The position numbers and the translations under genes are program-made. Below the pieces are notes generated by a model. The model was given only the letters and a program-made list of their open reading frames with translations. It made no database searches and was not told the origin of the DNA. 61,751 nucleotides of DNA from a virus, in IMG/VR virus record IMGVR_UViG_3300027847_000989, positions 1-61,751 of that record; one strand, written 5' to 3'. Positions 104 through 61,751 of the stretch are shown piece by piece (positions within the stretch are counted from its first letter, which is position 1; every line of letters begins with the position of its first letter).

Positions 104-171
104 GGATGCCAGCAGGGATGCCAGTAGATTCTTTCCACTGTAAATACTGTAAACATGCAAGGATGTTACAC

Positions 172-594
172 ATGTCAATGTACATACCACACCGTGCACC
201 ATTCAGATTCACACGCAGTGAACAGCCTGACTGGTCGGCAACTTTGTTCACAGATGGATTCAATAGGGACTGGTACTTCAGTTACCAGACACTCATTGCC
301 TTCGCATCTAAAGAGACTGGACTTGTCATTAACCGTGACATGGGATCAACAAGAGCCACGTCGAATCACCTGGCTGCCGTACCTATAGCTTCTGGTACTC
401 ACGTATCAGGCACTGACTCACCACCTCATAGGTCAGTGAGCGACAGGCAATTCACCGAGCTAATGGCACCAGCAAGGACAGCACTCGTTGATCCCTCACC
501 ATCAGACCAATGGGTCGTCGCTGCTCAATGGCTCGAACAGAATGGTCACATGAAAGCTGCTGCTGACATGCGACTAGCAATGGACGCATGCTAA
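172..594 (+). CDS. Small phage protein, unknown function
   Basis: About 140 residues. The frame is open from 106, but ATG 172 is preferred because AAGG (159-162) sits at normal distance and a copy of the 13-mer (132-144) lies just upstream, as for other early genes. ATG 163 is an alternative. The protein has a motif FSYQTLIAF (residues about 38-46) in an aromatic-rich N-terminal half, and a C-terminal amphipathic segment containing QWLEQNGHMKAAADMRLA that looks like a helical hairpin. No signal peptide or membrane segment is visible. I do not recognise a characterised family. Confidence 0.7.
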   Translation: MSMYIPHRAPFRFTRSEQPDWSATLFTDGFNRDWYFSYQTLIAFASKETGLVINRDMGSTRATSNHLAAVPIASGTHVSGTDSPPHRSVSDRQFTELMAPARTALVDPSPSDQWVVAAQWLEQNGHMKAAADMRLAMDAC

Positions 595-630
595 CTCTAT
601 TACTACCGCTAACAAAATTCCACCACCCCC

Positions 631-659
631 TTGACAAGGTGCCATATGTATGGTATAAT
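631..659 (+). promoter_or_regulatory. Consensus sigma70-type promoter
   Basis: TTGACA (631-636) and TATAAT (654-659) are separated by exactly 17 bp, a perfect match to the housekeeping bacterial consensus. Transcription would begin near 666. A one-mismatch copy of the 13-mer, TTTACATTGGAAA (679-691), lies about 13-25 bp downstream of that start, where a bound protein could block elongation. It is the best promoter seen in the window and presumably drives early plus-strand transcription by the host polymerase. Confidence 0.85.
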
Positions 660-2755: not shown

Positions 2756-3274
2756 ATGGGCCGAGGAAACTGGTTTCCCAGTACACCCAATCAATGGGAT
2801 GAGTATTACCGGCTGGTCTACGTTGACCTGTCAATGGGTCCAGGTGGGTCATCCGACTCACTTGACCTAGACGTTAACGACGAGCATGAATACCATGAGG
2901 CATACGTTTCACTAGTTGAATGTATGTCTCGCTCTATGTACCCATCAATGGATCGCATCAGGTCCTACTACAACGATGACGGGTACGACATCAAGGACTT
3001 CAATCACAGCAGAGACACCGCCGCTGTATTTGCAAGCGAGCTTATCACTGTCGTATGGGATACGGCAGGTGAAGCATGGCATCAAGGCATTGGTGTATGC
3101 ATGAGAGAGTATGCCGAACCTAACCTAGCACGTCGGCACGTTGACTGGCAAGCCGACAAGCTATTCACTGCACTCAATGAAGTGTATCATTGTAGTGTAC
3201 GCACATCACCGTGGACCTCGGCACCATACGCCGCTACTATTTCCACTGTAAATACCGTAAGCACAGGGGGCTAA
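2756..3274 (+). CDS. Hypothetical acidic protein
   Basis: 172 residues from ATG 2756, preceded by AAGGAG and the GCAA-ATG cassette typical of this arm; a 13-mer (2710-2722) precedes it. The last codons contain another 13-mer (3240-3252), read as Ser-Thr-Val-Asn. Tyr- and Asp-rich and similar in composition to the 2083 product, so possibly a diverged paralogue. Confidence 0.75.
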   Translation: MGRGNWFPSTPNQWDEYYRLVYVDLSMGPGGSSDSLDLDVNDEHEYHEAYVSLVECMSRSMYPSMDRIRSYYNDDGYDIKDFNHSRDTAAVFASELITVVWDTAGEAWHQGIGVCMREYAEPNLARRHVDWQADKLFTALNEVYHCSVRTSPWTSAPYAATISTVNTVSTGG

Positions 3275-3624: not shown

Positions 3625-3672
3625 CATTTCCACTGTAAACTAACGCCAACTAACACGCAAGGAGAAATGCAA

Positions 3673-4225: not shown

Positions 4226-4426
4226 ATGTCAGCGTCAACAACCCTCATTTACAATGGTACTACGTACAGGATAAAGGATTCCCTCGGAGCCAACGCAGTA
4301 GAGAGACTAACCGCTACAGGGTGGGAGGCATCATACGTAGCAGGCCACTGGTTGCTATCAGTAGGTCACAACATACGACGTGCTGTATCAGCAGCAGAAA
4401 CTAATGACATGAAACTAGAAAGGTAG
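4226..4426 (+). CDS. Small hypothetical protein
   Basis: 66 residues with AGGAAGGA upstream. Short beta strands at the N-terminus (TTLIYNGTTYRI). Part of the tightly packed early operon. Function unknown. Confidence 0.65.
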   Translation: MSASTTLIYNGTTYRIKDSLGANAVERLTATGWEASYVAGHWLLSVGHNIRRAVSAAETNDMKLER

Positions 4427-4430
4427 TATC

Positions 4431-4697
4431 ATGCGACAGATCATCGACCGAGTAACATGCAGCAAGTGCGGCCAAGTCTTTGACTTCGAGAGGTACAATG
4501 TAGATACCAACGAAGCAAGGATCGAAGCTATAGGCTCATGGCTCACATCATTGGGCTGGAAGCTGTTACGCTACGAGAATTGCAAGAGACGAGCAATGGA
4601 CTTCTGCCCACTGTGTTCAATCAAGTTTAGTTTACGAGAGATGAGTGAGACATCTAACCCCAAGAGTAAGGACAAAGCAAATGAGAACCAAGGTTAA
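4431..4697 (+). CDS. Zinc-ribbon-like small protein
   Basis: 88 residues. Cys pairs CSKC (residues 10-13) and CPLC (about 59-62) are spaced as in a treble-clef or zinc-ribbon fold, so metal binding is likely. Begins 4 bp after the previous stop and overlaps the next gene start by 17 bp. Zinc ribbons of this kind often bind nucleic acid or a protein partner; the target is unknown. Confidence 0.65.
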   Translation: MRQIIDRVTCSKCGQVFDFERYNVDTNEARIEAIGSWLTSLGWKLLRYENCKRRAMDFCPLCSIKFSLREMSETSNPKSKDKANENQG

Positions 4698-5856
4698 CAC
4701 GACAGCGTCAATGACACCCGGCATGCTATACCGCACCATCATGCCAAGCACGTACCTCATGACACGGTATGGAATCGCAGGTAGAAACGCATGGGTTTCC
4801 ATTGGAAATCCTAATGAACCATGGGACAGGCCATGGGTAGCAGGCAGGCCAACACCGATAGTCGAGGTGTGGGTTGAGTACGGTACGCCAGGTGAGGACA
4901 AGCCATACGTCACATGTAACATCGAGGACGTTGGCATCGTCGAAGACACAGACAAAGACCCCATCACGGCGTTCACCCCTCATGTATGCCCTCGGTGTGA
5001 AGGCAGTGGCTTTGCGGATCATGGAAAGAACACCGACACTGAGCGCATGTATATCTGGCATGACCACAGCAAGCCCTATAAAGAACAGTGGCTCAAGATT
5101 AACGACAACACTCACGAGGACAAGGGCACGTTCGGTGAGAAGAAAGATGCTACCCGCCTTACTGCCAAGCAGACTGATGAAGTATGGCGTAACGGACTCA
5201 CCGCCCACGATGACACCAGCTACTGCTCTCAATGCAGTGATTCAGGTGATGGACCCAAGGGTACTGGAGAGATTCGGCACGCTCGCAATGCAGCACGAAC
5301 TACCAATCACTTGGTATCATGGAGTGGCGAGACACCCAAGGGCCTTACGTTCTATGGTTCCTTCGCTGTCCTCTACATCAATGATGATCCCGATGTTGAT
5401 GTTGCCGTACTCGAACCCGCCAACTCATACGACATGGGCTATGGTAGTCATGTCGTATCGGCCAGGGATCTACGCAACAGGCATCGTTCATTCGTCGTGC
5501 CTCAGTACAACAGATGGACACGGGAGATGGTGGCACTCAAGTACCCTCGGCTCTTAGCTCACATGATCTGTGAATCCCTTGGGTATTTCTCCCCCTCCGC
5601 CGTAGCCAGCGCACTGTGCTGCTACCTCAATGGCGAGCCATGCTACTGTGAATGGTACGATCACATGGCACGGTTCAATGAACGAAAGAACAGCAGGGCT
5701 GGCATGTGGGACATGACCGCAGCCATACCATTCAGGTCATTCACTCAGCGTAAGTACCACAAGGGTAGCATGTCTAGCTATCCCGCAGCCACTGAGTTAA
5801 TCAAGGGACTCAACGAAGGCACGCTACCCAATGGCATGCTCGCATCATGGTTCTAG
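4681..5856 (+). CDS. Protein with two CxxC zinc-knuckle segments, unknown function
   Basis: 391 residues. ATG 4681 has the AAGGACAA-GCAA-ATG cassette; the frame extends to 4645 inside the previous gene. Two short segments, CPRCEGSGF (about residue 103) and CSQCSDSGDGPKGTG (about 182), resemble the CxxCxGxG zinc repeats of DnaJ-type proteins, but there is no J domain. The C-terminal third is rich in Tyr, Cys and His. A variant 13-mer (4796-4808) lies within it. No enzyme motif recognised. Confidence 0.65.
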   Translation: MRTKVNTTASMTPGMLYRTIMPSTYLMTRYGIAGRNAWVSIGNPNEPWDRPWVAGRPTPIVEVWVEYGTPGEDKPYVTCNIEDVGIVEDTDKDPITAFTPHVCPRCEGSGFADHGKNTDTERMYIWHDHSKPYKEQWLKINDNTHEDKGTFGEKKDATRLTAKQTDEVWRNGLTAHDDTSYCSQCSDSGDGPKGTGEIRHARNAARTTNHLVSWSGETPKGLTFYGSFAVLYINDDPDVDVAVLEPANSYDMGYGSHVVSARDLRNRHRSFVVPQYNRWTREMVALKYPRLLAHMICESLGYFSPSAVASALCCYLNGEPCYCEWYDHMARFNERKNSRAGMWDMTAAIPFRSFTQRKYHKGSMSSYPAATELIKGLNEGTLPNGMLASWF

Positions 5857-5893
5857 GTCTATCACTATTCCCACATCAACAAGGAAGTTTACA

Positions 5894-5998
5894 GTGGAAA
5901 TCGTACTAACACTCAACCTGTTCACACTAGCGGCTATCGGATGCTTCATCATGGGAGTAGCAGTGCTATTCAATTCGCCGCCTAACTATAAACCTTAA
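5894..5998 (+). CDS. 34-residue membrane peptide starting at GTG inside the 13-mer
   Basis: GTG 5894 lies within TTTACAGTGGAAA (5888-5900) and is preceded at 6 bp by AAGGAAG. The product begins Met-Glu-Ile and is one hydrophobic helix (LNLFTLAAIGCFIMGVAVLF) with a short polar tail, so a single-pass membrane peptide is likely. The same arrangement, an AGGAG-like site, TTTACA and GTG-GAA-AT, starts the genes ending at 23778 and 59350. Confidence 0.6.
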   Translation: MEIVLTLNLFTLAAIGCFIMGVAVLFNSPPNYKP

Positions 5999-6009
5999 GG
6001 AGAATACAA

Positions 6010-6189
6010 ATGAATGACCTAACACCCGAGCAGAAGGAAAAGCTAGCCGATCTTGTGGTCGATAGCTGGGACCTTAAAATTCTATTGCAATTTGCTGTCG
6101 ATACAGTGCTGAATATGTACCTTGAAGACGACGAAGCAGCGAAGAGAGATGCAGTATACATTGAATTTTTCACGGACAACCCTGAATGA
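6010..6189 (+). CDS. Small acidic helical protein
   Basis: 59 residues with AAGGAGAA upstream (5997-6004) and ATG 6010. Mostly helix-forming and acidic, with a hydrophobic middle (LKILLQFAVDTVLNMYL). No family recognised. Followed closely by the 6201 gene. Confidence 0.65.
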   Translation: MNDLTPEQKEKLADLVVDSWDLKILLQFAVDTVLNMYLEDDEAAKRDAVYIEFFTDNPE

Positions 6190-6200
6190 GGACAATGCAA

Positions 6201-6497
6201 ATGAAACTTGACACACCAGATGACAGGCGATACGCAGAGATCGCACTGTCAGTACAAGATGCATGCAACACACTGGCAGTAACCAATGAATTGTCACGCC
6301 GCCTTGCAGTAATCAATGACACGCATGACTGGGACACTGCCCGTCAGCATCCCGCCACTGTACTGTTCATTGATAAGCTATCATCACTTGCACGATGCCA
6401 AGTAGGTATCGGTGGAGTGAGGGTCAGCGAAGCATACGATGCATGTGAGAGATTACGAGACGGACTTGAAGTTGAATGGGAGGTAACACCACTATGA
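6201..6497 (+). CDS. Small helical hypothetical protein
   Basis: 98 residues; ATG 6201 follows AGGACAA-GCAA. Predicted mostly helical. Several residues of the kind MKLDTPDDRRYAEIALS suggest an N-terminal amphipathic helix. The stop overlaps the next start as ATGA. Confidence 0.65.
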   Translation: MKLDTPDDRRYAEIALSVQDACNTLAVTNELSRRLAVINDTHDWDTARQHPATVLFIDKLSSLARCQVGIGGVRVSEAYDACERLRDGLEVEWEVTPL

Positions 6498-6895
6498 GTG
6501 ACACGACCACACTAACCCGCCACCTATGTGAAGGCGGACAAGAGAATGCACATGTCGTAAAGGGTTGGCCTTACGGCAGAGTGAAGAGATGCTACAAGAG
6601 ATTCTGGATCGAACGCCATAAGAACGGCACCGTTCGCATGGTGATGCAGACATCGTTCCCTTGGTTACCCGATGACATATCACCTGAGTATGGCGACTGT
6701 CGCTGGAACAAGCCGAAGCTAGGGGTGTACCAATCATTCATCATCTTGTACACCGACACTGAAGATGGCACCACTCATCACACATGCCTTGGCAAGACAC
6801 CATGGGCTGAGCATATCCAGAAGTTCCTTGACAAGTGGGGCAGCATGCTCACTGATGACGAGGTCAGGGCTGTAAGTAATTCGAGTCCGTATTAA
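6494..6895 (+). CDS. Hypothetical protein
   Basis: 133 residues, ATG 6494 within an ATGA overlap. Trp- and Tyr-rich basic middle section. No cofactor motif visible. Ends in a TAATG overlap with the next gene. Confidence 0.65.
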   Translation: MSDTTTLTRHLCEGGQENAHVVKGWPYGRVKRCYKRFWIERHKNGTVRMVMQTSFPWLPDDISPEYGDCRWNKPKLGVYQSFIILYTDTEDGTTHHTCLGKTPWAEHIQKFLDKWGSMLTDDEVRAVSNSSPY

Positions 6896-7146: not shown

Positions 7147-7174
7147 TTTACAGTGGAAATAAAGGATAAAGCAA

Positions 7175-8162: not shown

Positions 8163-8742
8163 AGTTAATACACCTGAAGAGTACGCTGCCAAGCAAGCCA
8201 AGAAGATTTCCAGTGGAAAGAACCAAGGCAAGCGAGGCGGTAAGAACAAGCACATCAATGGCATGTTGCCGTCACCAACAAAGCTGCGTGCCCCTGGTGC
8301 GGGCTACACTAGTACCAACTATCACAAAGAGGTAACGCTAATGTACCATGGATTCCAAGCAATCAGTGCAGGCATGGAGAACATCATCACCATTGCACTG
8401 TCATCATCGAGGGTCAAGTTCCAGTGTCTTGATGACATCCTTGCTTCGTACTCGGACTACCGTGAGGTGACACGCGGGTCAAGTTCCAGCAGTGACATGA
8501 CAGTGGGAGGGTGGATCAAGAAAGAACTGCTCGATGCCTGCGAACTTGTTGAGTGCAACGATTACAACGAGGTACTCAAAGTTGCCGATGCATGCAAGAA
8601 AGCTGGCCTGCTTGGCAAGTCATACGAACTGACATACCTCAAGCCAATTGAGTCAGGGCATACTAGGCTTGACGATGCTACTGCACACGCAGTGAAGAAG
8701 ATTGCAGAAGAAGAACCTACTGAACCAGAGCAGCAAGTATAG
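8155..8742 (+). CDS. Hypothetical protein with basic N-terminus
   Basis: 195 residues; ATG 8155 preceded by AAAGGACAA. Residues about 10-35 are Lys-rich and include a 13-mer (8207-8219) read as Ser-Ser-Gly-Lys. The C-terminal part is helical with an acidic tail. It is the last gene before a double hairpin, so it may end a transcription unit. Confidence 0.65.
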   Translation: MTKVNTPEEYAAKQAKKISSGKNQGKRGGKNKHINGMLPSPTKLRAPGAGYTSTNYHKEVTLMYHGFQAISAGMENIITIALSSSRVKFQCLDDILASYSDYREVTRGSSSSSDMTVGGWIKKELLDACELVECNDYNEVLKVADACKKAGLLGKSYELTYLKPIESGHTRLDDATAHAVKKIAEEEPTEPEQQV

Positions 8743-8936: not shown

Positions 8937-9224
8937 ATGGCAGAACTACGTACCATAACCGGCTCCCAGTACGTCATATACTATACCCTCGGCCCACTAC
9001 CTAAGGATGGTGACGAGCATTGCTGTAACGGTAACGGTGCCGAGCGATCAATCAAGATGAACCAACCATCACCAGACCTAGAACAAGCGGTGATCCTTGC
9101 TCGCACCGATGTCATATCTGACAGTGCCAGCATCATATCAGCCAAGGAAGTTTCCACTGGAAAAGTATGGGACTACCTTGACCCAGAGGCAGTGTACTTT
9201 AAGAACCCCAATCAACCTACGTAA
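8937..9224 (+). CDS. Small hypothetical protein
   Basis: 95 residues, ATG 8937 with AGGTAA upstream, first gene after the double hairpin. Beta-rich N-terminus; the middle (SPDLEQAVILARTDVISDSA) is a helix-strand unit. A 13-mer (9151-9163) is read as Ser-Thr-Gly-Lys. Confidence 0.65.
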   Translation: MAELRTITGSQYVIYYTLGPLPKDGDEHCCNGNGAERSIKMNQPSPDLEQAVILARTDVISDSASIISAKEVSTGKVWDYLDPEAVYFKNPNQPT

Positions 9225-9491: not shown

Positions 9492-10063
9492 TGGCTAAGG
9501 TAATGGCAGAAGTGTGGTTGCAGGGATTCCTTGCTGGCCTTGAGCATTATGCATGGCAAAAGGACGGCGTCACATACGTTGGTACATGTGGCACCACTCT
9601 CATTGAAGCTATAGAGAAAGCGAAAAAAGATTACTCGGCAGAATCCGATGAGACTGATGTACTGCCGGACCCCGAAGCAGAGCATGATACCGAGTGGCCT
9701 GAGTTCCACGTATCGGATACCGTCAGACTAGAAGGCAAGTCAGTCATAGGAAACTCCCTCATTCGCCAGTACGGTCAATGGTGGAGGCTTGCTGCCATGG
9801 CTTCTAAGTACGGAGGAAAGAAGTGCATCACAATGACATCACTCATGCCTGCCAAGCAAGGTAAGTACCGTGGTTCAAAGGTAGCAAAGAAGTGTCCGTA
9901 TGTAGTAGCACTCATGAGGGACCAGGCAAACGAGAAGGACTTCAACGTACTGGAGGTCAACAAGTACCCTTCCGATTTCCAGTGGAAACTACACTGGGAC
10001 ATTGAGCAGGCTGCGGAGAAGGCAAGAGAGAAAGAACTTAAGAAAGCAGAGAAAGAGAAATAA
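9491..10063 (+). CDS. Hypothetical protein
   Basis: 190 residues, start overlapping the preceding stop (TGATG). Residues about 70-150 look like a compact alpha/beta domain; the C-terminus is a Lys/Glu-rich helix (EKAREKELKKAEKEK). A 13-mer (9976-9988) is read in another frame as Phe-Gln-Trp-Lys. No catalytic signature. Confidence 0.65.
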   Translation: MAKVMAEVWLQGFLAGLEHYAWQKDGVTYVGTCGTTLIEAIEKAKKDYSAESDETDVLPDPEAEHDTEWPEFHVSDTVRLEGKSVIGNSLIRQYGQWWRLAAMASKYGGKKCITMTSLMPAKQGKYRGSKVAKKCPYVVALMRDQANEKDFNVLEVNKYPSDFQWKLHWDIEQAAEKAREKELKKAEKEK

Positions 10064-10443: not shown

Positions 10444-10873
10444 AAACAAAGAGCCAGAGATACCGCATCTGGTAAAGTTGAAGGTCGAGTATGACAAGTA
10501 CAGTCACTCGATAAAGATTAAGGACAGCACGTTGTTAATGGTAGTGTCCCTTGAAGGGTTCACTAAGCACATGCATGCATTCCATGCCAACGGTGTTGAA
10601 AAGATTATAGCCCGAGCGGCTGCGAAGGCACATGTCATAGTACGTAGCAAGCACCTACAGCTTGCGTCAATCGTCAGGCAGTACGTGCCAGTGTATGAGG
10701 TGGAAGCAAAAGATATATCAGAGTCCCTCAAAGTGGGCCTGGAAGAAGCGGCACTGATAGAGAAGCACTGCGTGACTGTCATGTCCGAAGTGCAGGCTGA
10801 ACAAGACAGAGGTAACGTAAGCTTTGTGGATAAACTGAGTGCAGTTTCCACTGTAAAGAAAGCATGGGAGTAG
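10376..10873 (+). CDS. Hypothetical protein
   Basis: 165 residues; ATG 10376 has AAGG upstream but lies inside the preceding gene, an unusually long overlap. A Pro/Lys-rich N-terminus (residues 1-30) leads into an alpha/beta region. A 13-mer (10845-10857) encodes the near-terminal Ser-Thr-Val-Lys. Confidence 0.6.
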   Translation: MTDGKKPPGQGPNPSPSEPEKDKNKEPEIPHLVKLKVEYDKYSHSIKIKDSTLLMVVSLEGFTKHMHAFHANGVEKIIARAAAKAHVIVRSKHLQLASIVRQYVPVYEVEAKDISESLKVGLEEAALIEKHCVTVMSEVQAEQDRGNVSFVDKLSAVSTVKKAWE

Positions 10874-44275: not shown

Positions 44276-44294
44276 GATATTTCCAGTGGAAAGA

Positions 44295-45836: not shown

Positions 45837-45852
45837 TTACAGTGGAAACTCC

Positions 45853-47693: not shown

Positions 47694-47782
47694 TTGATTC
47701 TCCAAAGAAAAAGGCGATGACTACCTGAAGTAGTCATCGCCGGGTTGCAGCAGGCTTGCACAGTATTAGTTTACAGTGGAAA

Positions 47783-51285: not shown

Positions 51286-51346
51286 CTCCAATGGAAATTT
51301 ATTATAATCTATTTTGAAAATTGTATCTCTGGTTTTCCAGTGGAAA
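51286..51346 (-). promoter_or_regulatory. AT-rich capsid promoter region between two 13-mer sites
   Basis: A full 13-mer (51334-51346) lies upstream, and a degenerate one (51286-51298; last two bases GC in the gene direction) overlaps the ribosome site TTGGAG. Between them, TATAAT appears on the minus strand (51301-51306), but no good -35 exists. The pair could form a regulated promoter. Inference from arrangement. Confidence 0.4.
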
Positions 51347-51985: not shown

Positions 51986-53803
51986 TTACTTAGCGTAAGA
52001 GATTGCACTTCGTCCACGAAGACTCTTCGTTACTTTCGTGCTTGCCGTTTCAGCGGCCTGTTCAGTTGACCCAGCGCCTACCAGTAGTTGAACCTTCTTG
52101 TTGACGCTCGCAGTATCAGCGACGACTTCAACTTCTTCAACTTCTTCTTCGGAGGTTGCGGCCTTAGCCAGTTGCTTCAGGAGATTGATCGTTCTCTTGA
52201 ACATCTTGTCGCCAGCTTCGTCGTGCGACATGGCTTTAACTTGTTCTTCGATTGTCTCTTCGTCATCTTCCTCGAACTTGTATTCAAGGTTGACTCCGAT
52301 GTCTGAGATTTCCTTGAGTCGCGATGCATGCTTTTCGTCCGATGCTTTGACTGCATCAAATTCAGTTTGCTTCAACTCAAGAGCCTCGTTAAGCATAGTT
52401 TCGTGCTGCTCTTTAGTCATGAGTTCGCCGCCTTCAATCTGGCTGGCGATCTCACTCTTGACTGACTCGTCAAAGTCTGCCTGTACGGACGACTGACGCA
52501 TCTCAGTGACTAGACTTGCGAACTCTTTTTGAGTCGCCTCGTCTACCGGATTTCCACTGGAAATCTTTTTAGTTGCGTCTTCCATTTTCTTGAATAGATC
52601 TTTGAATTTCACTTCGATGTCTCCGGGTAAGGATGCTTCTTCTGGTACAACTGTGTCGCCAGAGTTGTTCTTACCCCTGAGCGGCACGTCAACGATGTGC
52701 AGATGAACCTCAGAATGCTCTGTGCCCTGAGGATCTCGCCAATAACTGTGGTGAGTGTCGGTTCGTCCAGTGAGCTTAGGCTTGTTGCCCCTCACTAAGT
52801 TCATGTTCTGTAGATAATGTACGTGACCATTGGACGGCAAAATCGTTCCGTCGCTAAGAATTTCATGAACGTGCCCGTCTTCATCTCCAGGCTGTGTCTT
52901 GCCGATTATGGCAATGCTAGCTAAATCGTTAATCATTGTATCGACAGCTACGCTGGCAACCTCCACGCAATTTTCTTCACCACTAAAAATTTTATATTTT
53001 AGTGGAAGAAAGATTTTTCCGCTGCTGGATGATGCGACTTCGAGACTGGTGCCAGCAACCATTGCCAGTACGTCGCTGGTATCATCTGCCGGGGAGGTGG
53101 TAATACCTGCTCCCCAGAAGCTTACCTTACCGTCGACACCACCCAGGGCTACTGCCATCTCGTGACCCTTGTAGTCTTTGACTCCATTGCCGTGAACGCA
53201 TTCAAGCATGTCACCATCTGCGTCGGCAAATGGAATGAACTCGTCTCGGTAGTAGAGGGCCGCATCGGACCACTTGTGCCCGCACTCCATCGAAACCTTC
53301 CACTGCTCGCGTCCTGTCAAGTGGTTCTTAACTATGTCTGGGATCTTCGAGTGCCGCATGTACAAGGCACCGAGGGCGTACAAGGGGACTGCGCTGTCTG
53401 GGATCGAGCTTGCGTCTGCAACTTCTTTCCACTGTAAACCTTCCTTGGCATAAGCCACTGCTTTGATGTGACCACAGATCTCATCGCGAGAGGAGATGCC
53501 ATTGTCAATAAGAGAATGCTCGATATCAATCAAGCTGTCTTGAGCGGAAGCAAAGGAGTTTGCCAGGGTCTTGGTGGTGAAGCACCGTCGCTTCTTGTTG
53601 ACTGTAGGTAGCGAATGGCAGAGCTTCATCGGGAAGTAGATTATGTTTGGCGAATCAGAGAACTGGACATCTGGAAACATGTCCCTGATCTCACCAACGT
53701 CCATGGTCTGGACGGAGGCGTTGTCTCCTACTACTCTCTCCCGAGAGTCGCCTGACTCAGGAGCGCCGATCTTGTGTATGAAATCGTCAAGTGTGAAAGG
53801 CAT
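51986..53803 (-). CDS. Capsid maturation protease/scaffold-type protein
   Basis: 605 residues from ATG 53803 (AGCAGGAGC upstream). The N-terminal half resembles prohead proteases: IEHSLIDNG supplies a His, and REQWKVSMECG a Ser, in the spacing of S78/U9-like enzymes. A His-rich insert (GHVHE ... GHVHY ... HSYW ... EVHLHI) is unusual. The C-terminal 200 residues are a coiled-coil scaffold-like region. A protease fused to scaffold is known in several phages. 13-mers at 52551 and 53426. Confidence 0.6.
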   Translation of the reverse strand: MPFTLDDFIHKIGAPESGDSRERVVGDNASVQTMDVGEIRDMFPDVQFSDSPNIIYFPMKLCHSLPTVNKKRRCFTTKTLANSFASAQDSLIDIEHSLIDNGISSRDEICGHIKAVAYAKEGLQWKEVADASSIPDSAVPLYALGALYMRHSKIPDIVKNHLTGREQWKVSMECGHKWSDAALYYRDEFIPFADADGDMLECVHGNGVKDYKGHEMAVALGGVDGKVSFWGAGITTSPADDTSDVLAMVAGTSLEVASSSSGKIFLPLKYKIFSGEENCVEVASVAVDTMINDLASIAIIGKTQPGDEDGHVHEILSDGTILPSNGHVHYLQNMNLVRGNKPKLTGRTDTHHSYWRDPQGTEHSEVHLHIVDVPLRGKNNSGDTVVPEEASLPGDIEVKFKDLFKKMEDATKKISSGNPVDEATQKEFASLVTEMRQSSVQADFDESVKSEIASQIEGGELMTKEQHETMLNEALELKQTEFDAVKASDEKHASRLKEISDIGVNLEYKFEEDDEETIEEQVKAMSHDEAGDKMFKRTINLLKQLAKAATSEEEVEEVEVVADTASVNKKVQLLVGAGSTEQAAETASTKVTKSLRGRSAISYAK

Positions 53804-53804
53804 G

Positions 53805-55478
53805 CTACGATGCTCCTGCTGGGGGTTGTGTTCTAGTACCTTCGTTGGCGTCAGGGTTTCCATCTACGCCGGGTCTACCTGGGTTCTGATGCTCACCGCC
53901 TTTGTCTCCGAAAGGATCGGGCGGCTCGGGCCATGACCATAGCTTTGTCTTCTCTTCCTCTGCTTTGGATATCGCCTTCTGCCTTAGTGTAGAATCAGGA
54001 TCTCTTCCAAGCTCCTTGTGTGCTGTTCGTGGATCTGTCCATGCATACTCTGCGAGGAACCTTAGCTCATTTAGTAGCTGTGCTGGTTCCTTGAGGACGT
54101 TCTCATCGAAGCCTGCCGAGACAACGCAGTTCTCTGGGGTTTCTATTCGATCAACTATGCTGTCGTGATCAAAGAACTCAGATAGCACCCACTTTACTTC
54201 AGTCCTTGCGTCTACTAAGTGAGCCATGAGTCTCTTGACTCCAAGGAATCCACTGCCGTAATTGCCACCGTCACCAGTGAACACCACTACGGTAACACCT
54301 GCCCAGTTGAAGATTCTCTCCTCTGGCTTCTTGTACTTCTCACCAGAGAACATGTCGTTGGGAGGGAAGATGAAGTCGAAGGACACCGTGTGGTTCGTTA
54401 CTATCTTGGCGGCCTGTGATGTGTCCTTGAGCTTGGTTGTAAGTGCGTCGATATCATCCTGCTTGGCCCAGTTGTTCTTCTGTCCAGCAAGAGGGCCTTG
54501 GGTTATGGACTCACCCATCTTGGCGTGCAGCATGAAGTGCTTCATCATGAACGATGTAGCGAAGTCGCCGTCCGTACAGTTGTTTCGAGTTTCCAGCGGA
54601 AGGAAAATGTTAGCCATGGATGGCTTGGCTAGTCCGTGATGCTTTCTGTTGTTGGTCTTGACTATCCAGTTGTGGCCGTCTTCCCTGTTCAACGCAACCA
54701 TACTGTCGCCGGTCTTCACGGCCTTGATGTATGCGAACGGTATGCCTTCGTCGTTGACGAGAGCCATGAGGGCCTCTTCTCGCTCTGCCTTTGTATAGAG
54801 GCGAAGGGCATACTGTATCTTGTTTCTTATCTCTATGGGAATTGCAACCCTTAGTACATCGTTTCCAAACGAATTATTCCAGTCGATGTCGCCTGGGTTA
54901 AGGGCGGTGATGTCCTGTAGGCCAGGGACAAGTGCCTCCCTTGAGCGTGGCTTTGGCGGCACCGACGCAGATGATGACTGAGATCCCTCTGACTTAGGGT
55001 CGATCTTCCAGTACAGAATCATGCTATCGCATGTGAACCAGTCGCTTAGAAGCTTCTTGGTGAGGGCGTAGAAGTCCCACTTCCTTTTGATCTTTGCGAG
55101 CTTTACCTCGAACGCAGAGAACTCTACCTCGTTCTCATTTCCACTGGAAACTTCTGGAGCGCAGGCGATGTTGAAGCCTGATGTAGTGAAGTCAGTCTTG
55201 ACTCTGACCAGTCCCTGGACTAGGTCATCCCTCTCTGACCACTCCATTGATCGTCGAATCTGCGTGTGCTTGGCCGCAGGGGTGGCGTCATTCATCAAGC
55301 GATCAAGAGTCGTCTTCCTGATTCTTGTGCCGCTGCCTCCTGTACTGCTGCCGCTAGTGAACGCAGTGTCGACAGTGCTGAATGCGAACTCCCTGATGGG
55401 TACGCCCATCATTTCGATGGCACCGACTTCGGCTGTCTCTTCAGGCTCGTCTATGATGATCTTACGCAGGTCTGCCAT
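53805..55478 (-). CDS. Portal protein
   Basis: 557 residues from ATG 55478 (GGAGAGAG upstream). Located between terminase and protease, the standard portal position. Features: Ser/Gly-rich N-terminus, basic helix, TTSGFNIACAPEVSSG strand-loop, DWFTCDSMILYW-type wing region (SDWFTCDSMILYW), and a long C-terminal helix (GRDPDSTLRQKAISKAEEEK). Forms the dodecameric DNA port. Confidence 0.7.
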   Translation of the reverse strand: MADLRKIIIDEPEETAEVGAIEMMGVPIREFAFSTVDTAFTSGSSTGGSGTRIRKTTLDRLMNDATPAAKHTQIRRSMEWSERDDLVQGLVRVKTDFTTSGFNIACAPEVSSGNENEVEFSAFEVKLAKIKRKWDFYALTKKLLSDWFTCDSMILYWKIDPKSEGSQSSSASVPPKPRSREALVPGLQDITALNPGDIDWNNSFGNDVLRVAIPIEIRNKIQYALRLYTKAEREEALMALVNDEGIPFAYIKAVKTGDSMVALNREDGHNWIVKTNNRKHHGLAKPSMANIFLPLETRNNCTDGDFATSFMMKHFMLHAKMGESITQGPLAGQKNNWAKQDDIDALTTKLKDTSQAAKIVTNHTVSFDFIFPPNDMFSGEKYKKPEERIFNWAGVTVVVFTGDGGNYGSGFLGVKRLMAHLVDARTEVKWVLSEFFDHDSIVDRIETPENCVVSAGFDENVLKEPAQLLNELRFLAEYAWTDPRTAHKELGRDPDSTLRQKAISKAEEEKTKLWSWPEPPDPFGDKGGEHQNPGRPGVDGNPDANEGTRTQPPAGAS

Positions 55479-55528
55479 TGAAACTCTCTCCACTAATGTT
55501 TCGTGTAGAGGATTTATCGGCAGCTTAT

Positions 55529-57277
55529 TTATATTGGGTCAATAGAAATTGCTAGATCAGATCCACCTTGCCTTCCAGGCATGTCCTTGCCGCTCAGTGC
55601 TTTAAGTATAGAGTATGCAACGAACGAGTACAGTAATCCGTATGCAGAATCTTTTTTATTCTTGGATTTAAACTTGTACATTCCGTATGTGTCTATGGAC
55701 GGCGACTTGTCTTTGTGTCTAGCGATGTCAACTTGGATTAACTGCTCAACAGTTATGTCCATCTCGGCACGTATCACATCAGCCTCTGCCATTCCTTTCG
55801 CTCTGTTCAGATACTCCCTCTTGGCACCAACGTCCCACGTACCACCAGCCTCTTCCCATCCGTTCCATCTTCCTGGGAGTATGATGTTTCCAGTGGAAAT
55901 AGCATCCCTCATAGCTCTATGCATTCTGTTTACTATGACGCTATCAGACGCCATCTTGCCCCACAGTGCATTAATGAAGAAATCTCCACGCTTGAACGGA
56001 ACCAGTATATTGTCACCTATCAATCCATGTGGATCTCCAAGCTCGACCATTGGAATGACTGACTCTATCTTTCCTCGTATCGGTATCTCTGTCTTCCTGA
56101 GTTCATCCCTGACGAACAGTCCACCACCGCCTGGATCGTAGCACACGAACGAAAACTGAAACTTCTTGTGAAGCTCTTGGATTATTCCTGCCATGTGTTC
56201 AGATTGAATGTTGTTCTTCCGAATTGTTAGGCAGTGCTGCGGCGGTTCTGACAGGTCGGATATCTTGAGTACAGATATAGAGAAGTCATCTGCACTAGAC
56301 TTAGTGTGATCAGATCCACCCCTTGCTGTATCGTACCCGGCAACGTACATGTCGTTGTCGCTGCGTCTTTGCAGCAGCATGGGAGAGTTCTGCCTCCGTC
56401 TAGCATCGATGTCCTTCGACGAATAGAAAGACATGGAGTCCTTCTGCCACCTGCCATCAATCTCTGACTTCACTACGCCATCAGGGTTCGTGGTCTGCAT
56501 GGTGAAGATTGTTCGACGATCAACGAACGCCTGGAACTCCTTCTTGTTTACTGGCACGTGCCGGTAGTTGGATGTAAACCGCGCGTAGTCCTTATTGCCC
56601 CTGGCTATGTTTGAGTCGATACTCTTGACTAGCGTGTATGACCTGTCATGCCTGAAGCCTGGGGTTGACATGCAGTGTATGTGGTTCTGCATTATCTTGT
56701 CATCTTGGTAATCATTCAACGCAGTGACTCGACCGAATAGCGTCTTGGTGAGTGATGCTATATTAAAGATTGTCCACTCGTCGAAGTACCCATCGTGCCA
56801 ACGCTCTGATCTCAACCGCTCACTATCCTTGTCGAAGTTGGGAGGCAACGCCCTGATGGTGGCACCTCCCCTGAAGTGGATCTCCCATGCCGAGGTTCCG
56901 TGCGTGATCCTTGGCCTGCCCTGCTGTGTCTTTACGCAGCTTCTGAATATCTTGGATGACGAGTACCATCTGTCATAGTTCTGAAAGATCAACTGTCCCT
57001 GACGGAACGTACCTGAGATGATTCCTGAGATTCGATTAGGAAACAGGCAGGATCTCAGTGCAGATAGCAGTCCAAGAGTAAAGGACTTTCCAGTGGAAAA
57101 TCCTGAGTCGTCCATAGTGAAGTGGGTAGTCCACATCTCTGCGAGCCTAAGCTCCTGATGCGGAGGGAGCTTTACGTTCAGTATTACCTTCGCTGCCAGA
57201 ATCGGATCATGTATGAAATCGTCAACCATCATCGCAGTTAGCCTGTTGTCATTCCTCCATGCGTGACTAGTTGCCAT
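55529..57277 (-). CDS. Large terminase subunit
   Basis: 582 residues from ATG 57277. ATPase Walker A SGFSTGKS (residues 58-65), Walker B YFDE (164-167), and a nuclease-type AGYDTARGGSDHT (about 315-327) plus CYDPGGGG (about 380). It drives DNA packaging into the head and cuts the concatemer. The 13-mer 57087-57099 codes for the Phe-Ser-Thr-Gly-Lys of the P-loop. Overlaps the upstream gene by 11 bp. Confidence 0.9.
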   Translation of the reverse strand: MATSHAWRNDNRLTAMMVDDFIHDPILAAKVILNVKLPPHQELRLAEMWTTHFTMDDSGFSTGKSFTLGLLSALRSCLFPNRISGIISGTFRQGQLIFQNYDRWYSSSKIFRSCVKTQQGRPRITHGTSAWEIHFRGGATIRALPPNFDKDSERLRSERWHDGYFDEWTIFNIASLTKTLFGRVTALNDYQDDKIMQNHIHCMSTPGFRHDRSYTLVKSIDSNIARGNKDYARFTSNYRHVPVNKKEFQAFVDRRTIFTMQTTNPDGVVKSEIDGRWQKDSMSFYSSKDIDARRRQNSPMLLQRRSDNDMYVAGYDTARGGSDHTKSSADDFSISVLKISDLSEPPQHCLTIRKNNIQSEHMAGIIQELHKKFQFSFVCYDPGGGGLFVRDELRKTEIPIRGKIESVIPMVELGDPHGLIGDNILVPFKRGDFFINALWGKMASDSVIVNRMHRAMRDAISTGNIILPGRWNGWEEAGGTWDVGAKREYLNRAKGMAEADVIRAEMDITVEQLIQVDIARHKDKSPSIDTYGMYKFKSKNKKDSAYGLLYSFVAYSILKALSGKDMPGRQGGSDLAISIDPI

Positions 57278-58208
57278 CTTCTTTTGCCTTTCCATCTAGT
57301 GGTAATGCGTACTCGCTGTTCAATTCATACCCAAAGAAAAGGGCGACTTGATGCGGGTCCTCAGGCAGGTCTGCCCCTGAGTCTAAGTGCTTCTGTGCAA
57401 CATCTAATGCCGTTACGGTATCATATCCAAGTGACTGAAGCAGGTACTGTAGGTCCATTGGAAAGTCTAGGACAGGTGCTAGTGCTATGGCTGCATCACT
57501 GAACATCCTCCTCACGCCAAGGCCCTCTCTTGCTTCCTTCTCCTTCATGTACGAGTCGTGAATCATCGCCATCGACTTCTCGTCGTCGCTTAACTCGAAT
57601 GCTTCCTTCTCTGGTAGCTGTTTGCGAAGGGATTCGAGGTTACTTATGAGTCTGGTCTTCTTGGAGTCAAGCTCCTTAGTCAACTCTCCCCTAGTCTGGA
57701 TCATGTAACAGGTAAGCCAGTTTAGTTCAATCTCTGTGATTATGATCTGGTGGCACAGGAAGTATGCGGTCGGATCTCTGTAGTAGCCTGAGTACTGCTC
57801 GTACTGCTCAAGGTAGTACTTCCTCTCGGCTTCAGAATATGAGTCTGGGGCTACGCCAGGTGGAGTGATCTCTATGACAACTCCAGTTTGCTCAAGCTCC
57901 GAATTACCACCCTCCGTTTGATTGTTTCCACTGGAAATAGGTTCGTGGATATCGCTCTGCGTTACCGGGGTGGCGACCGTGTCTCCTTCTGCGTTTGTTG
58001 AGAACTCTATGTCCGCCCCTCTTCCAGAGCATGACCCGCACAGGGTTTTGTCTTCGTCTTTTATGTGCTTGTTCTTTCCGCATTTTAAGCATACGGTTAG
58101 ATGCTCGCATTCTAGTTCTTTGCATATTGCTGGCCTGTTATCGAGGGACACCATGTTGCATTTCTTGCATACTGCCTTGTATGAGCAGATGTTTTTCTGT
58201 TCAGCCAT
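57267..58208 (-). CDS. Zinc-ribbon/helical protein, possible small terminase
   Basis: 313 residues. N-terminal Cys motifs (CKKC, CLKCGK, CGSC) form one or two zinc ribbons; the middle and end are helical. It lies immediately before the large terminase, where small terminases are encoded, but a DNA-binding helix-turn-helix is not clear. Could be a packaging accessory instead. Confidence 0.5.
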   Translation of the reverse strand: MAEQKNICSYKAVCKKCNMVSLDNRPAICKELECEHLTVCLKCGKNKHIKDEDKTLCGSCSGRGADIEFSTNAEGDTVATPVTQSDIHEPISSGNNQTEGGNSELEQTGVVIEITPPGVAPDSYSEAERKYYLEQYEQYSGYYRDPTAYFLCHQIIITEIELNWLTCYMIQTRGELTKELDSKKTRLISNLESLRKQLPEKEAFELSDDEKSMAMIHDSYMKEKEAREGLGVRRMFSDAAIALAPVLDFPMDLQYLLQSLGYDTVTALDVAQKHLDSGADLPEDPHQVALFFGYELNSEYALPLDGKAKEDGN

Positions 58209-58752
58209 CGTAGTATCCCTTGCTAACTGCGAAGTAGAAGCCGATGTTTATGGCATCGGCTATGTTCTGCTTGACTCCACCATCAACAATCAGTGACGAC
58301 GTTGGATTAAACGAAGTTATAAGCTTGTTGGCAGTCTCGACTGACCATGGCTTTGCCTTCTTCTTGCCCCTGTGCTTCTCCCAATCTATTGGAAGGCACA
58401 TGTCCACTGTCTTAGTGCTGAGGAGTACACCCACTATGGCGTATGCTACAGCGAACACCTTGAATACTGACTGTGCCCTGGCTGCAAGCATCTCCTTCTT
58501 AAGGGTCTTGACTCCGTAGATTGTCTGAGGCGGCTGCTCAATCACTATGTGATCAAAGTCATCTTTGATGGTAAGGCTTAGTACTGACTGGGCTATGTCC
58601 CTTGCTCTGTCGTGTATCCCTTCTGACTTCGTCCTTGGCCGTATGTTCTTTGCGTAGTTGATGCCTTCCCTGCCCATGCCTCGTATCTTGAATTCCCATG
58701 AAGCAACGCCGGTGTGCTTAATGCCTGGGTCTATAGATAGTATCTTAGTCAT
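58201..58752 (-). CDS. RuvC-like Holliday junction resolvase
   Basis: 183 residues from ATG 58752. The RNase-H fold acidic residues are visible: Asp8 (ILSIDPGIKHTGVA), Glu72 (HIVIEQPP) and Asp166 (NIADAINIG). This family cuts four-way junctions; in phages it resolves branched replication products before packaging. Next to the terminase and replication genes. Confidence 0.85.
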   Translation of the reverse strand: MTKILSIDPGIKHTGVASWEFKIRGMGREGINYAKNIRPRTKSEGIHDRARDIAQSVLSLTIKDDFDHIVIEQPPQTIYGVKTLKKEMLAARAQSVFKVFAVAYAIVGVLLSTKTVDMCLPIDWEKHRGKKKAKPWSVETANKLITSFNPTSSLIVDGGVKQNIADAINIGFYFAVSKGYYDG

Positions 58753-59350
58753 CACCGAACCCCCATGTAATCTTGCGTTCGCTTCTCGCCCTCTTGTACT
58801 GATACTCAGTCATGTACTCAGGGCGAGTAAGTGCAGCATGGAATCCGTGAGAGATCTCATTTACTGTTGCTGGAAGCCCAAGCTGACTTAGGGAGTCGGT
58901 CGTGTCCCTGATTGCATCCTCCGCCTTCTTTCTTTTCTCTGGTGAAGACTTGTCCCATCCTCCATTCTTCATGAAGGCTATGCCACGGTTGTAGTATTCT
59001 CTTAACTCCCACGGGTTACCGTCTTCTCCAACAATGCCCTCTGTCAGCATTGTGCCGAACATCTCCATCGCCTCGAAGATCATATCATTGCCGAGATCGT
59101 AGTTAGATCTCCAGGCTATGTCGCACTCCCTTACTGTCAGGTACTTCTTTCCTTCGTGCCTCTTCTCAAGTGCGTCGTTCATACATGTGGCTATGCTCCA
59201 GCCAAAGTTCAACGCATACTCAATCGCATCCTTCTCGTATATCTCATGGGCCTCTGTGAGATCGAGGTCTGCTTCTCCTCGCTTATATTTCCTGGGGCCA
59301 GCCTCTTGTAGCCTTGGCTTGTTCGCTGATGGTAGGTCTGAGATTTCCAC
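58745..59350 (-). CDS. Hypothetical protein with GTG start in the 13-mer
   Basis: 201 residues. GTG 59350 lies inside the 13-mer 59344-59356, with AGGAG six bases upstream; the product begins Met-Glu-Ile. Basic N-terminal region (residues 10-30), helical body with RARSERKI near the end. It lies between the replication protein and RuvC, so a DNA-processing role is plausible. Family unknown. Confidence 0.6.
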   Translation of the reverse strand: MEISDLPSANKPRLQEAGPRKYKRGEADLDLTEAHEIYEKDAIEYALNFGWSIATCMNDALEKRHEGKKYLTVRECDIAWRSNYDLGNDMIFEAMEMFGTMLTEGIVGEDGNPWELREYYNRGIAFMKNGGWDKSSPEKRKKAEDAIRDTTDSLSQLGLPATVNEISHGFHAALTRPEYMTEYQYKRARSERKITWGFGDD

Positions 59351-59364
59351 TGTAAACTCCTGAT

Positions 59365-61751
59365 CTAATTGAACGGGTCGTCCTGCTCTTGTGAGTGATC
59401 GAAATCACTGAATGGATCGTCACTGCTTTTTGATGGCAATGAAGACGTGTATGACTCTGTAGTGTTAGCTCTCCTTGAAGCCTTTCCTACGTTTAAGAAT
59501 ACTCCCTCTAGCATATCCGCTATCTCTTGGTCCTGCCTCCATCTCTGCATGAACAGGTTGAACTTCTTTGTTTTCTTGTATCCCCACCTGCCGCTGGTTA
59601 TAAGATTGAATCCCTGTAGAGTGGCTATGTTAGACCCTAGCCACCTAGATCTCATGTCTATTTGCTCTTGAAGATCCCTCTTCTTGACAGACTCTAGCTG
59701 TTCGATGAGCAGAAGTATCTGACAGAAGTGATTGCCATCCCTGAAGAATTGATTGGAGGAGTCCTTGGCCTGCTTGATAGTCTCCTCGAATACTTCCCTA
59801 ATCTCATCGAAGTCAGACAGTGTCTTTCTCTTTCTGTTCTGATTGGACTTCTGGTGAAGCAAGCAGGCGGGCGAACTGTAGATTGAATCTATGAACATAG
59901 CCATCGCGGCCACGTGTTCCGGCTCTACGTTCAGAGCCATTAGGTCATCAGTAAAGCTTCTGTCCAGTACGGCATAGGCTGTTGATAGCCTAGCTAGGTT
60001 CAGCCTGAAGTCCTGAGGATTGACCAATGGTATGTCGTCAACATACCCGTACTTGTCTGATAGCTCCGTCGTCTTCTCAAGGCACATGTCCGTAGCCTCT
60101 GGCGACCAGTGTATCTGATCTATCTTTCTAGTCCATGCCCAGTGAACTAAGCTTCTCAGCATTTTCGATGTAAGCCTTATCTCTGCATCTATCTCTGACT
60201 TCTGATTGTAAAAATCATAGTCATGCTTTCCAGTGGAAAACACGGCTAGGTCGAGACGCCTAATAAACATAGGGTCGAAGCATTCCCTCAGTGCTTCGCA
60301 CCCGAAGACGAAGTCGGATATCGTGGCGGCTTCTCCGTTTGCATCCTTGGGGTTCATGAGGAAGATCGTTCTTGTCTGTGTGTGATACCCGCCACTGGCT
60401 ACCTGCTCGATGCTTAGAAAGCCAGTGTCCATGGCTATCGCCATTCGCTTGATCTCTTCCTTTGTACTCTCTTGCGTCTCATCGATTGCTATGATCTTAC
60501 ATGAGGCTTGGACGTATCGACCAATCGATATCATCCACTCGCCGCCCTTCTGTTTGATTGCGTATAGCAGGCCAGTCCTTGTTCCAGATAAAGCCGAAAA
60601 CAAGTCTCCGAGTTCAATCCAGTCGGATAGAGCAGTATAAGTCGCTGACTTCCCTGTGCCTGAGTCACCGAGGATGGCACTGTTGACCCAGCCTCTGATT
60701 CTTCCTCCATTAAAGTTGTAGTGCAATGGTGAGAGGTAAGTGAGGAGGACTGTAAGCAGGATGTGATCGGCATCATAGATCTTGGTAACCCCATGCACTA
60801 GGTCGTGCATTATCTCAGGTACGGTAAACTCATCCTTCAGTGCTTGCATTACCTCCCTGTTGTCTGACCGTGCCATGTCGAACTGTCGCCAGTCCTCTTC
60901 CATTGGCACCATCTCTTGCACGAACAGGGTAGCTATAGCGGTGTGCGGGTGCGTTCGTATCCAGCCTGTAGCCATGTAGTTCTGCGGCTGGATCGTGATG
61001 TTGTCCTCTGGCTGAAGGATATACACTGGGGTTTGAACTAGCTCCTGTGAATTCTGTAGCCTGCCGTCCTGATCTTCTTCAGCCCTCCATCTCTCCACTA
61101 CTTGGTGAGCGTAGTACTCCTCCATGACTACCTTGGTTATAGGCTCAACCGTGCACTTCTTTCCCTTGGCACATGCTATCTCGGCTATGGACCTGAGGTT
61201 TGCACTCTCTTTCTGCATGCATGCTTCAATGAACAGGGCGTGCCCATATGGTATAGTCTGTGTGCCAGCGTCAGCGTGACAGCATTCACCACCTGCGAGC
61301 AGTGGGCATTTCTTTATCTTGTAGCTACGTATAGCATGGAAGATCTTTGATGTTGTACCTGATATGGTGATGGGCACGGTGACCTTCTTGTCGATGTACT
61401 TCCTGTTTTTCAGGGCAACGACTAGGTTGTCTACTTCTTCAGCCTCGACTGTGGCCTCGTCCCCGTCCATGCCTCCGCATATAAGCTCTGGCGTTTCTTC
61501 CATTATCTTAAGGAAGTCATTGGTGTTAAGCTCTGACTTAAGGAAGAAGTCGGTGAGGTCCTTCGAGTCTTTCGTTCCTTCCAGCGGCAGGTCTATAATC
61601 TTTACAGTGGAAAACTTGGATGCCTCCAGTGCCTTGAGGAAGTACTTATTGGCTACGTTGTGAGATGACAGCTTGCCTTCTTCGTCGCAGTCGAAGCAGA
61701 TGTATACGAACTTACCGAAGAGATACTCCATCCACTCAGGTGCAAAACTTT
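59365..61751 (-). CDS. TOPRIM primase plus MCM-like AAA+ helicase, 5' truncated
   Basis: The frame is open to the window edge, so the N-terminus lies outside; at least 795 residues. A TOPRIM-type core (VYICFDCDEEGK and DSKDLTDFFL, near 61590-61700) is followed by a Cys cluster, then an AAA+ module with Walker A GDSGTGKSATY (near 60640-60670), a segment like MCM (SGTRTGLLYAIKQKGGEW), Walker B IAIDETQ (near 60480), MDTGFLSIEQVASGG and an Arg finger FIRRLDL. Likely the replicative primase-helicase. The MCM-like motor in a phage is uncommon. Two 13-mers (60227, 61601) inside. Confidence 0.75.
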   Translation of the reverse strand, partial: SFAPEWMEYLFGKFVYICFDCDEEGKLSSHNVANKYFLKALEASKFSTVKIIDLPLEGTKDSKDLTDFFLKSELNTNDFLKIMEETPELICGGMDGDEATVEAEEVDNLVVALKNRKYIDKKVTVPITISGTTSKIFHAIRSYKIKKCPLLAGGECCHADAGTQTIPYGHALFIEACMQKESANLRSIAEIACAKGKKCTVEPITKVVMEEYYAHQVVERWRAEEDQDGRLQNSQELVQTPVYILQPEDNITIQPQNYMATGWIRTHPHTAIATLFVQEMVPMEEDWRQFDMARSDNREVMQALKDEFTVPEIMHDLVHGVTKIYDADHILLTVLLTYLSPLHYNFNGGRIRGWVNSAILGDSGTGKSATYTALSDWIELGDLFSALSGTRTGLLYAIKQKGGEWMISIGRYVQASCKIIAIDETQESTKEEIKRMAIAMDTGFLSIEQVASGGYHTQTRTIFLMNPKDANGEAATISDFVFGCEALRECFDPMFIRRLDLAVFSTGKHDYDFYNQKSEIDAEIRLTSKMLRSLVHWAWTRKIDQIHWSPEATDMCLEKTTELSDKYGYVDDIPLVNPQDFRLNLARLSTAYAVLDRSFTDDLMALNVEPEHVAAMAMFIDSIYSSPACLLHQKSNQNRKRKTLSDFDEIREVFEETIKQAKDSSNQFFRDGNHFCQILLLIEQLESVKKRDLQEQIDMRSRWLGSNIATLQGFNLITSGRWGYKKTKKFNLFMQRWRQDQEIADMLEGVFLNVGKASRRANTTESYTSSLPSKSSDDPFSDFDHSQEQDDPFN

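Follow-up and report, generated by a model that had tools for sequence, protein, structure and literature searches.

A 13-bp palindrome tiled over a phage genome and its predicted recognition by an orphan ParB-like protein

The 61,751-nt stretch of viral DNA analyzed here (IMG/VR record IMGVR_UViG_3300027847_000989; below, the window) carries a 13-bp near-palindrome, TTTMCASTGKAAA, scattered along its whole length. We conclude that this 13-mer is a site under selection at the DNA level. Furthermore, comparison with other viruses indicates that the 13-mers are probably specific binding sites of P0002, an orphan ParB-like protein of the same phage. The weight of this case is carried by the match between protein and site in relatives of P0002, in which a CGAACG-type site appears to follow one helix of the ParB helix-turn-helix (HTH).

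Counts, build and spacing of the 13-mer

The original prediction counted 55 exact and 9 one-mismatch copies in the window, and our recount returned the same numbers, with 0 and 0.4 expected. The exact copies comprised 27 TTTCCASTGGAAA, 24 TTTCCACTGTAAA or its complement, and 4 TTTCCAGTGTAAA or its complement; the first two kinds had been described, but the third, needed to reach 55, had been omitted. In four of the nine one-mismatch sites, only the centre base deviates. Words with two mismatches (six more in the window) were near the chance level of 4.2. In line with the very low chance expectation claimed before, ten order-1 Markov resamples of the window contained no exact copy and 0.4 one-mismatch copies each.

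For the analysis, we made a gene model of the window with 72 genes and 95% coding DNA. The exact 13-mers were located within genes (37), at gene edges (3) and between genes (15), the intergenic share being far above the 5% of DNA that is intergenic (p = 5e-8). In 100 synonymous-codon shuffles, the number of 13-mers in coding sequences fell from 38 to a mean of 0.71 (maximum 4; gene overlaps counted twice), so the array was not reproduced by the codon-preserving control that had been proposed for it. All three reading frames were used, although unevenly (7, 26 and 4), and the preferred frame translates mostly as S[ST]G[KN] or S[ST]V[KN]. The three-frame use and the codon shuffles rule out a protein motif as the explanation; together with the intergenic sites, they bear out the earlier view that the site is read in DNA. 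The flanks of the 13-mer are nearly information-free (at most 0.14 bits per position).

In each 13-mer, a single base separates two 6-bp half-sites, which read TTTCCA or TTTACA (6-1-6). The resulting pattern, TTTMCA-S-TGKAAA, is a 13-bp 6-S-6 palindrome like the KorB operator. Across all pieces of the longer record (see below), the centre base of 85 any-centre words was C in 47, G in 33, T in 3 and A in 2, and only one copy had two A-type halves (6.9 expected). Asymmetric 13-mers were intergenic or at gene edges in 15 of 28 cases, compared to 3 of 27 for symmetric ones (p = 0.0013). Because TAA or TTA is part of the asymmetric form, a coding constraint is the likely reason for this bias. The asymmetric 13-mers face both ways within one gene arm.

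The window corresponds to a reversed part of IMGVR_UViG_3300027839_000001 (86,403 bp): end pieces of 705 and 547 bp were identical, and a 24.5-kb stretch showed three differences. The exact 13-mer count of the longer record itself, 80, equals the count from the window plus its flanks. Proteins that are 100% identical are present in records 3300031623_000016, 3300031625_000360, 3300010883_012695 and 3300009173_003019, and IMG/VR searches by tape measure, helicase or ParB alone returned only copies of the same phage.

The spacing, described originally as fairly even, was more regular than these words suggest. With the one-mismatch copies treated as real sites, the 64 window sites were on average 976 bp apart with a coefficient of variation (CV) of 0.40, compared to 0.98 for random points, and none of 20,000 random placements was as even. 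The largest gap was 1,806 bp, the random mean being 4,481 bp. In the 86.4-kb record, 80 exact and 15 one-mismatch 13-mers had a mean spacing of 908 bp and a CV of 0.43; among 20,000 random sets, the lowest CV was 0.65 and the lowest largest gap 2,462 bp, again compared to 1,806 bp.

P0002 and its relatives in other viruses

It had been stated that nothing in standard annotation explains the array. This holds for the window alone, but not for the longer record, in which a candidate binder is encoded about 6.5 kb past the window end. Neither a binder nor relatives had been suggested before. P0002 (458 amino acids; 14,959-16,335 of IMGVR_UViG_3300027839_000001) has an HTH_ParB domain (Pfam, 2e-16; 60.4 bits at a cut-off of 22.6) and matches the PHROG ParB-like partition family (1e-18), Spo0J (1.7e-15) and Noc (about 1e-10). 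By phmmer, residues 9-218 align to Spo0J; the Pfam score of ParB_N (0.087) was under the cut-off. The AlphaFold model was good for residues 21-233 (overall pLDDT 67.8; C-terminal half low), and the fold search retrieved Noc (7nfu, 1.7e-12), ParB (7bnk, 3e-12), KorB (8qa9, TM(target) 0.73) and, weakly, sulfiredoxin. Judging from sequence and modelled fold, P0002 is a ParB/Noc/KorB-family protein with a ParB HTH and a ParB N-domain.

The cytidine triphosphate (CTP) P-motif 2 of P0002 reads GFCRVMA instead of GERRxR, while ENLxR is retained. No parA was found beside the parB-like gene as in a canonical ParABS system, and the ParA motif [KR]GGxGK[ST] was absent from the window plus flanks spanning the 86.4-kb record, a search that a divergent ParA could escape. 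The P0002 gene itself is flanked by 13-mers, one starting 68 bp before the ATG and one 91 bp after the gene end; the latter is the sole copy with two A-type halves.

For the comparison, IMG/VR was searched with two ParB alignments, and the best 80 of 211 and the best 80 of 212 loci were analyzed. They gave 157 loci, of which 144 were distinct (13 were dropped as repeats or twins). A score of at least 12 was taken as a dispersed array; 39 resampled control loci reached at most 9.1. Dispersed 13-bp 6-1-6 palindromes were detected in 11 of the 144 distinct loci, with half-sites unlike those of the phage: CGAACG-N-CGTTCG, TCCACC-S-GGTGGA (17 copies in 102 kb) and TAGCCA-W-TGGCTA (4 in 17.4 kb). 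Arrays of dispersed TCCACCSGGTGGA and TAGCCAWTGGCTA accompany the ParB-like genes of the viral contigs G083 (locus L137) and G082 (locus L153). Spacers of 3 and 5 bp yielded only loci already counted, where they look like the same sites shifted, and spacers of 2 and 4 bp one extra locus each. The ParA motif was absent from the 13.5-21.2 kb stretches of all 11 dispersed-site loci and present in all three ParAB control loci.

In the first set, the strongest array besides those of the cluster O phage and of the phage itself was CGAACG-N-CGTTCG in L063, followed by L022 and then by L089, which also carries CGAACG sites. Altogether, CGAACGNCGTTCG was found in 10 contigs with 104 sites. In whole contigs of the first set, it occurred 18 times in G003, 13 in G055, 7 in G006, and 6 each in G004 and G005, and was missing from the other 69 of the 74 contigs searched; with their identical ParB and agreeing spacings, G004 and G006 probably represent the same phage. 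In the second set, all nine best tblastn matches carried CGAACGNCGTTCG (five contigs were already known), as did L190, with whole-contig counts of 17 in G079, 17 in G081, 8 in G080, and 6 each in G077 and G078. The centre was C or G in 50 of 50 sites across the first five contigs and A or T in 11 of the 17 sites of G081. A LexA-type CGAAC-N4-GTTCG was rejected as an explanation, having no copy in the five loci examined.

The CGAACG site was then compared with the protein in 140 loci (the 157 minus 10 repeats and 7 without a readable ParB stretch). It was present in 10 of the 12 loci with the helix R[FHY]V..R and in none of the 128 loci without it (p about 1e-13). The helix-carrying proteins share 31-47% best-segment identity with the first of them, and two are identical. 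Even spacing was detected in six of the eight contigs tested, a set that leaves out G004, G077, G078 and G082: the CV was 0.48 in G003, 0.45 in G055, 0.39 in G079, 0.44 in G081, 0.55 in G083 and 0.28 in G006 (range 0.28-0.55, P = 0.0001-0.009).

Several results weigh against the assignment of the 13-mers to P0002. The comparison phages were chosen for a ParB relative, so co-occurrence alone is weak evidence. Because the helix pattern was drawn after the first matches, among proteins that are related to each other, the p-value suggests more independence than there is; moreover, L104 and L109, both counted among the ten CGAACG loci, probably represent a single phage. At the threshold used, 133 of the 144 loci, most of them partial contigs, had no such array. 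None was found in Serratia phage Eta, which has an orphan ParB-like protein, in the first 50 kb of Leptospira LE1, which has ParA, or in the ParB-relative records MT835476 (first 50 kb), MT835836 and MT836448 (both short). L022 (ON073792, Aphanizomenon), with a ParAB pair, carries five dispersed sites of another build, GTTCAGA-N2-TCTGAAC. Spacing was uneven in G005 (CV 0.58, P = 0.24) and G080 (CV 0.81, P = 0.52). Counting in related phages, as had been proposed, met with no success: the two-site TTTMCASTGKAAA pattern retrieved only copies of the same phage from IMG/VR and no other phage, and therefore the TTT(C/A)CA half-site allows no covariation test. Moreover, a second palindrome clustered at the putative origin could be the real site of P0002 (see below).

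If P0002 recognizes the 13-mers, its dimer would read both TTT(C/A)CA half-sites across the central C/G pair in the manner of KorB or Noc. The most likely role is that ParB-like dimers load at each 13-mer, which would cover every 1-2 kb of the phage genome. Rather than controlling single promoters, this coating may act on the phage chromosome as a whole, by organizing, compacting, tethering or silencing it. We regard such a genome-wide role as plausible, with odds slightly below even. With a degenerate CTP motif, sliding may be lost, and dense 13-mers may stand in for spreading. The dispersed-site relatives have GERR or GHRR in 11 of 11 cases and 0.08 to 0.38 sites per kb, compared to 0.93 in this phage, and the cluster O ParB-like protein, with the motif GQRRTLA, is accompanied by 19 sites in 22.8 kb at the dense genome end. 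That density replaces sliding is a guess drawn from one phage plus cluster O.

Alternative explanations and further features of the phage

Outside the window, positions 4380-6620 of locus L007 (4.4-6.5 kb of the 86.4-kb record) are mostly non-coding and lie between divergent gene arms. This region looks like a replication origin. A second 13-bp palindrome, AGWCARSYTGWCT, also given as AGTCAAGCTGACT, is present there in 15 copies, nine of them exact and the others with one mismatch; outside this region, the record contains three one-mismatch matches to it but no exact copy. The copies often form pairs with a distance of 20 bp and a phase of 54 bp. Three exact dispersed 13-mers and four CCTATAC-N5-AACTACTTAC-like repeats are located in the same region. 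P0002 might bind these clustered palindromes, which are similar in build to the 13-mers and, like centromeres or iterons, occur in phased pairs, leaving the dispersed sites to another phage protein. In the relatives, however, the ParB-type helix is associated with dispersed 6-1-6 sites, and we consider this division of labor unlikely.

The remaining explanations do without P0002. The 13-mers might be stoperator-like sites of a conventional immunity repressor encoded by the phage. Stoperators, too, are spread over phage genomes (PMC9283540, PMC4351075), and the window encodes a tyrosine recombinase with catalytic R, HxxR and Y, a sign of a temperate phage. The stoperators of cluster A are, however, asymmetric and oriented with transcription (PMC4351075), while the 13-mers are near-palindromic. 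Promoter control would not call for regular tiling across long genes, and no other repressor was recognized among the phage proteins, though many open reading frames (ORFs) match no family. Taken together, stoperator-like sites are very unlikely. An MrpR-like recombinase acting as the repressor was rejected, since the window recombinase keeps its catalytic residues.

Another candidate was the archaeal mini-ORB, a site of Orc1/Cdc6, which would imply an archaeal host or a sink for its initiator. Its sequence, TTTCCASTGGAAA, is that of 27 of the 55 exact window sites, and methanogen variants have a TTTACA half. When genome contigs of 84,980 species were searched for two copies 322-352 bp apart, just three loci were found, all archaeal. 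In two of them, identical TTTCCASTGGAAA words lie about 220-230 bp upstream of methanogen genes read as orc1/cdc6 from the translation (L032:3947-5230 and L034:3795-5078); in the third, L033 (Heimdallarchaeota), no orc1/cdc6 was seen among the longer ORFs. The primers of a replication study in Thermococcus also include TTTCCASTGGAAA (PMC11005403; see also PMC4153887), and an MCM-type P-loop is present in the phage primase-helicase. This first idea was set back because a sigma factor and the ParB gene were found. The FliA-like sigma factor (1.5e-16), encoded outside the window, is not known to work with archaeal RNA polymerase and therefore argues for a bacterial host. Pfam scans, which took in all but 14 overlapping ones of the 63 leftover small ORFs, detected no Orc1/Cdc6 family member, and relatives of the primase-helicase are found in Bacillus and Microbacterium phages. 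Furthermore, the mini-ORB reading does not account for the arrays of other phages, which share the 6-1-6 build but have unrelated half-sites. We hold it to be highly improbable, and the exact mini-ORB match is probably a coincidence. Finally, the phage might exploit sites of a host protein such as chromosomal ParB, Noc, SlmA or MatP. The Noc half-site, TTTCCC, resembles TTTCCA. About 70 palindromic Noc sites are spread over a chromosome (PMC4331003). The two-copy search retrieved no bacterial contig, although this was a weak test, restricted to the 322-352 bp spacing, and in the relatives the site type tracks the helix of the phage's own ParB. A host protein is thus hardly to be expected, and binding by P0002 is the reading we prefer.

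In the window, the 13-mers (no strand assigned) have the following positions. The first exact copy, 132-144, is TTTCCACTGTAAA with an extra half-site, TACTGTAAAC, directly after it. Exact copies follow at 2057-2069, 3240-3252, 8207-8219, 9151-9163, 9976-9988, 10845-10857, 12174-12186, 13009-13021, 13902-13914 (TTTACACTGGAAA), 15232-15244, 16938-16950, 19030-19042, 20285-20297, 21404-21416, 22747-22759, 24124-24136, 25489-25501, 26196-26208, 26381-26393, 27108-27120, 28699-28711, 30495-30507, 38611-38623, 40767-40779 (within the tape measure gene), 44548-44560, 46708-46720, 48604-48616, 49717-49729, 52551-52563, 53426-53438, 55138-55150, 55887-55899, 57087-57099, 57925-57937, 60227-60239 and 61601-61613. 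Exact copies at 23772-23784, 45836-45848 and 59344-59356 are at gene edges, and those at 963-975, 2710-2722, 3627-3639, 5888-5900, 7147-7159, 36876-36888, 47770-47782 and 51334-51346 are intergenic. A start codon lies 4 bp downstream of the exact copies at 31320-31332, 37610-37622 and 44280-44292, 5 bp downstream of 39745-39757 and 7 bp downstream of 32231-32243; the TGGAAA half of these five may also act as a ribosome-binding sequence. The exact copies at 34016-34028 and 35667-35679 are each contained in one copy of an intergenic 40-bp repeat (34005-34044 and 35656-35695; 97.5% alike). One mismatch is present at 679-691, 4796-4808 and 17591-17603 (centre T), 50478-50490 (centre A), 22386-22398, 25150-25162 (intergenic), 29917-29929, 36317-36329 and 42474-42486 (within the tape measure gene).

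Further genes of the window encode the primase-helicase (59365-61731, minus strand; distantly like Bacillus, Arthrobacter and Microbacterium phage proteins), a RuvC-like protein (58201-58755), a portal protein (53805-55493, weak match), the tape measure protein (39773-44275, distant similarity), an SNF2 helicase (12936-16733), the tyrosine recombinase (18522-19691) and a protein with an E1_FCCH (ubiquitin-activating enzyme) domain (35967-36863, minus strand; match 1.8e-10). A PD-(D/E)XK nuclease is encoded outside the window in the 86.4-kb record, as are the sigma factor and P0002. Two overlapping, near-identical 98-bp stretches (87-bp period) were observed at 33159-33343 inside the gene 32273-33991, and ARAGORN called a tRNA-Asp at 35109-35199 (plus strand), antisense within a gene and probably spurious. 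The L022 record (42.6 kb) has replication, ParA and ParB genes and is otherwise annotated mostly with polysaccharide genes.

Comparison with known systems

The arrays may belong to an undescribed phage chromosome system, in which orphan ParB-like proteins and phage-specific 6-1-6 sites, tiled evenly at one per 0.9 to 6 kb, would cover any stretch of phage DNA and thereby mark or pack it as the virus's own chromosome. In the phage studied here, sliding would have been lost and density raised to one site per kilobase in compensation. We put this forward as a conjecture that is somewhat more likely to fail than to hold. ParB-like genes are frequent on mobile elements, where they almost always lack the ParA-binding motif (PMC12704722), and in the literature searched, which covered few subscription papers, no paper linking orphan phage ParB proteins to dispersed sites was found. 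These arrays deserve attention because the sequence alone suffices to match a protein with its target, across phages with four different half-sites, and because even tiling is a quantitative signature not predicted by a promoter-control model. Should the proposal hold, a ParB layer would extend over the whole chromosome of some phages. The same system would account for the cluster O repeats as well, a puzzle open since 2015 that would become testable in a cultured phage.

KorB of plasmid RK2 is similar in that it is a ParB-family protein with sites on a mobile element and a fold match to P0002. The KorB operator has a 13-bp core, TTTAGCSGCTAAA, with a central S, and RK2 carries about a dozen operators. 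In contrast, the phage has 80 sites with another half-site and a degenerate CTP motif, and KorB has KorA as a partner. KorB is described as a CTP clamp that slides on DNA and silences at long range, and its operator OB as a 16-bp element (PMC11790492). Noc, the best fold match of P0002, likewise uses scattered palindromes, but its half-sites abut without a central base. Its roughly 70 sites are distributed over a whole Bacillus chromosome, and its specificity residues, QKKR, correspond to E, L, R and S in P0002 in a by-eye alignment. As a ParB relative, it acts from palindromes scattered round the replicon (PMC4331003, PMC7383237). SPbeta MrpR is a phage repressor with several genomic sites (PMC10516654); it differs by its approximately ten promoter-region sites and by a recombinase fold without catalysis, while the catalytic residues of the window recombinase are intact.

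The cluster O mycobacteriophages (Corndog, Firecracker) have more than 30 dyad-symmetric 17-bp repeats of unknown function in genes and gaps, and a ParB-like gene without a parAB system (PMC4351075). In that paper, dimeric binders were predicted for the repeats, and the ParB-like protein was judged unlikely to act in genome stability. In the 22.8 kb of Firecracker examined, which form its denser right end, we counted 19 repeats (CV of the spacing 0.72). In comparison with the 13-mers, these repeats have a 7-3-7 build and are less evenly spaced, and the cluster O ParB-like protein, with a ParB_N domain only, has no BLAST similarity to P0002.

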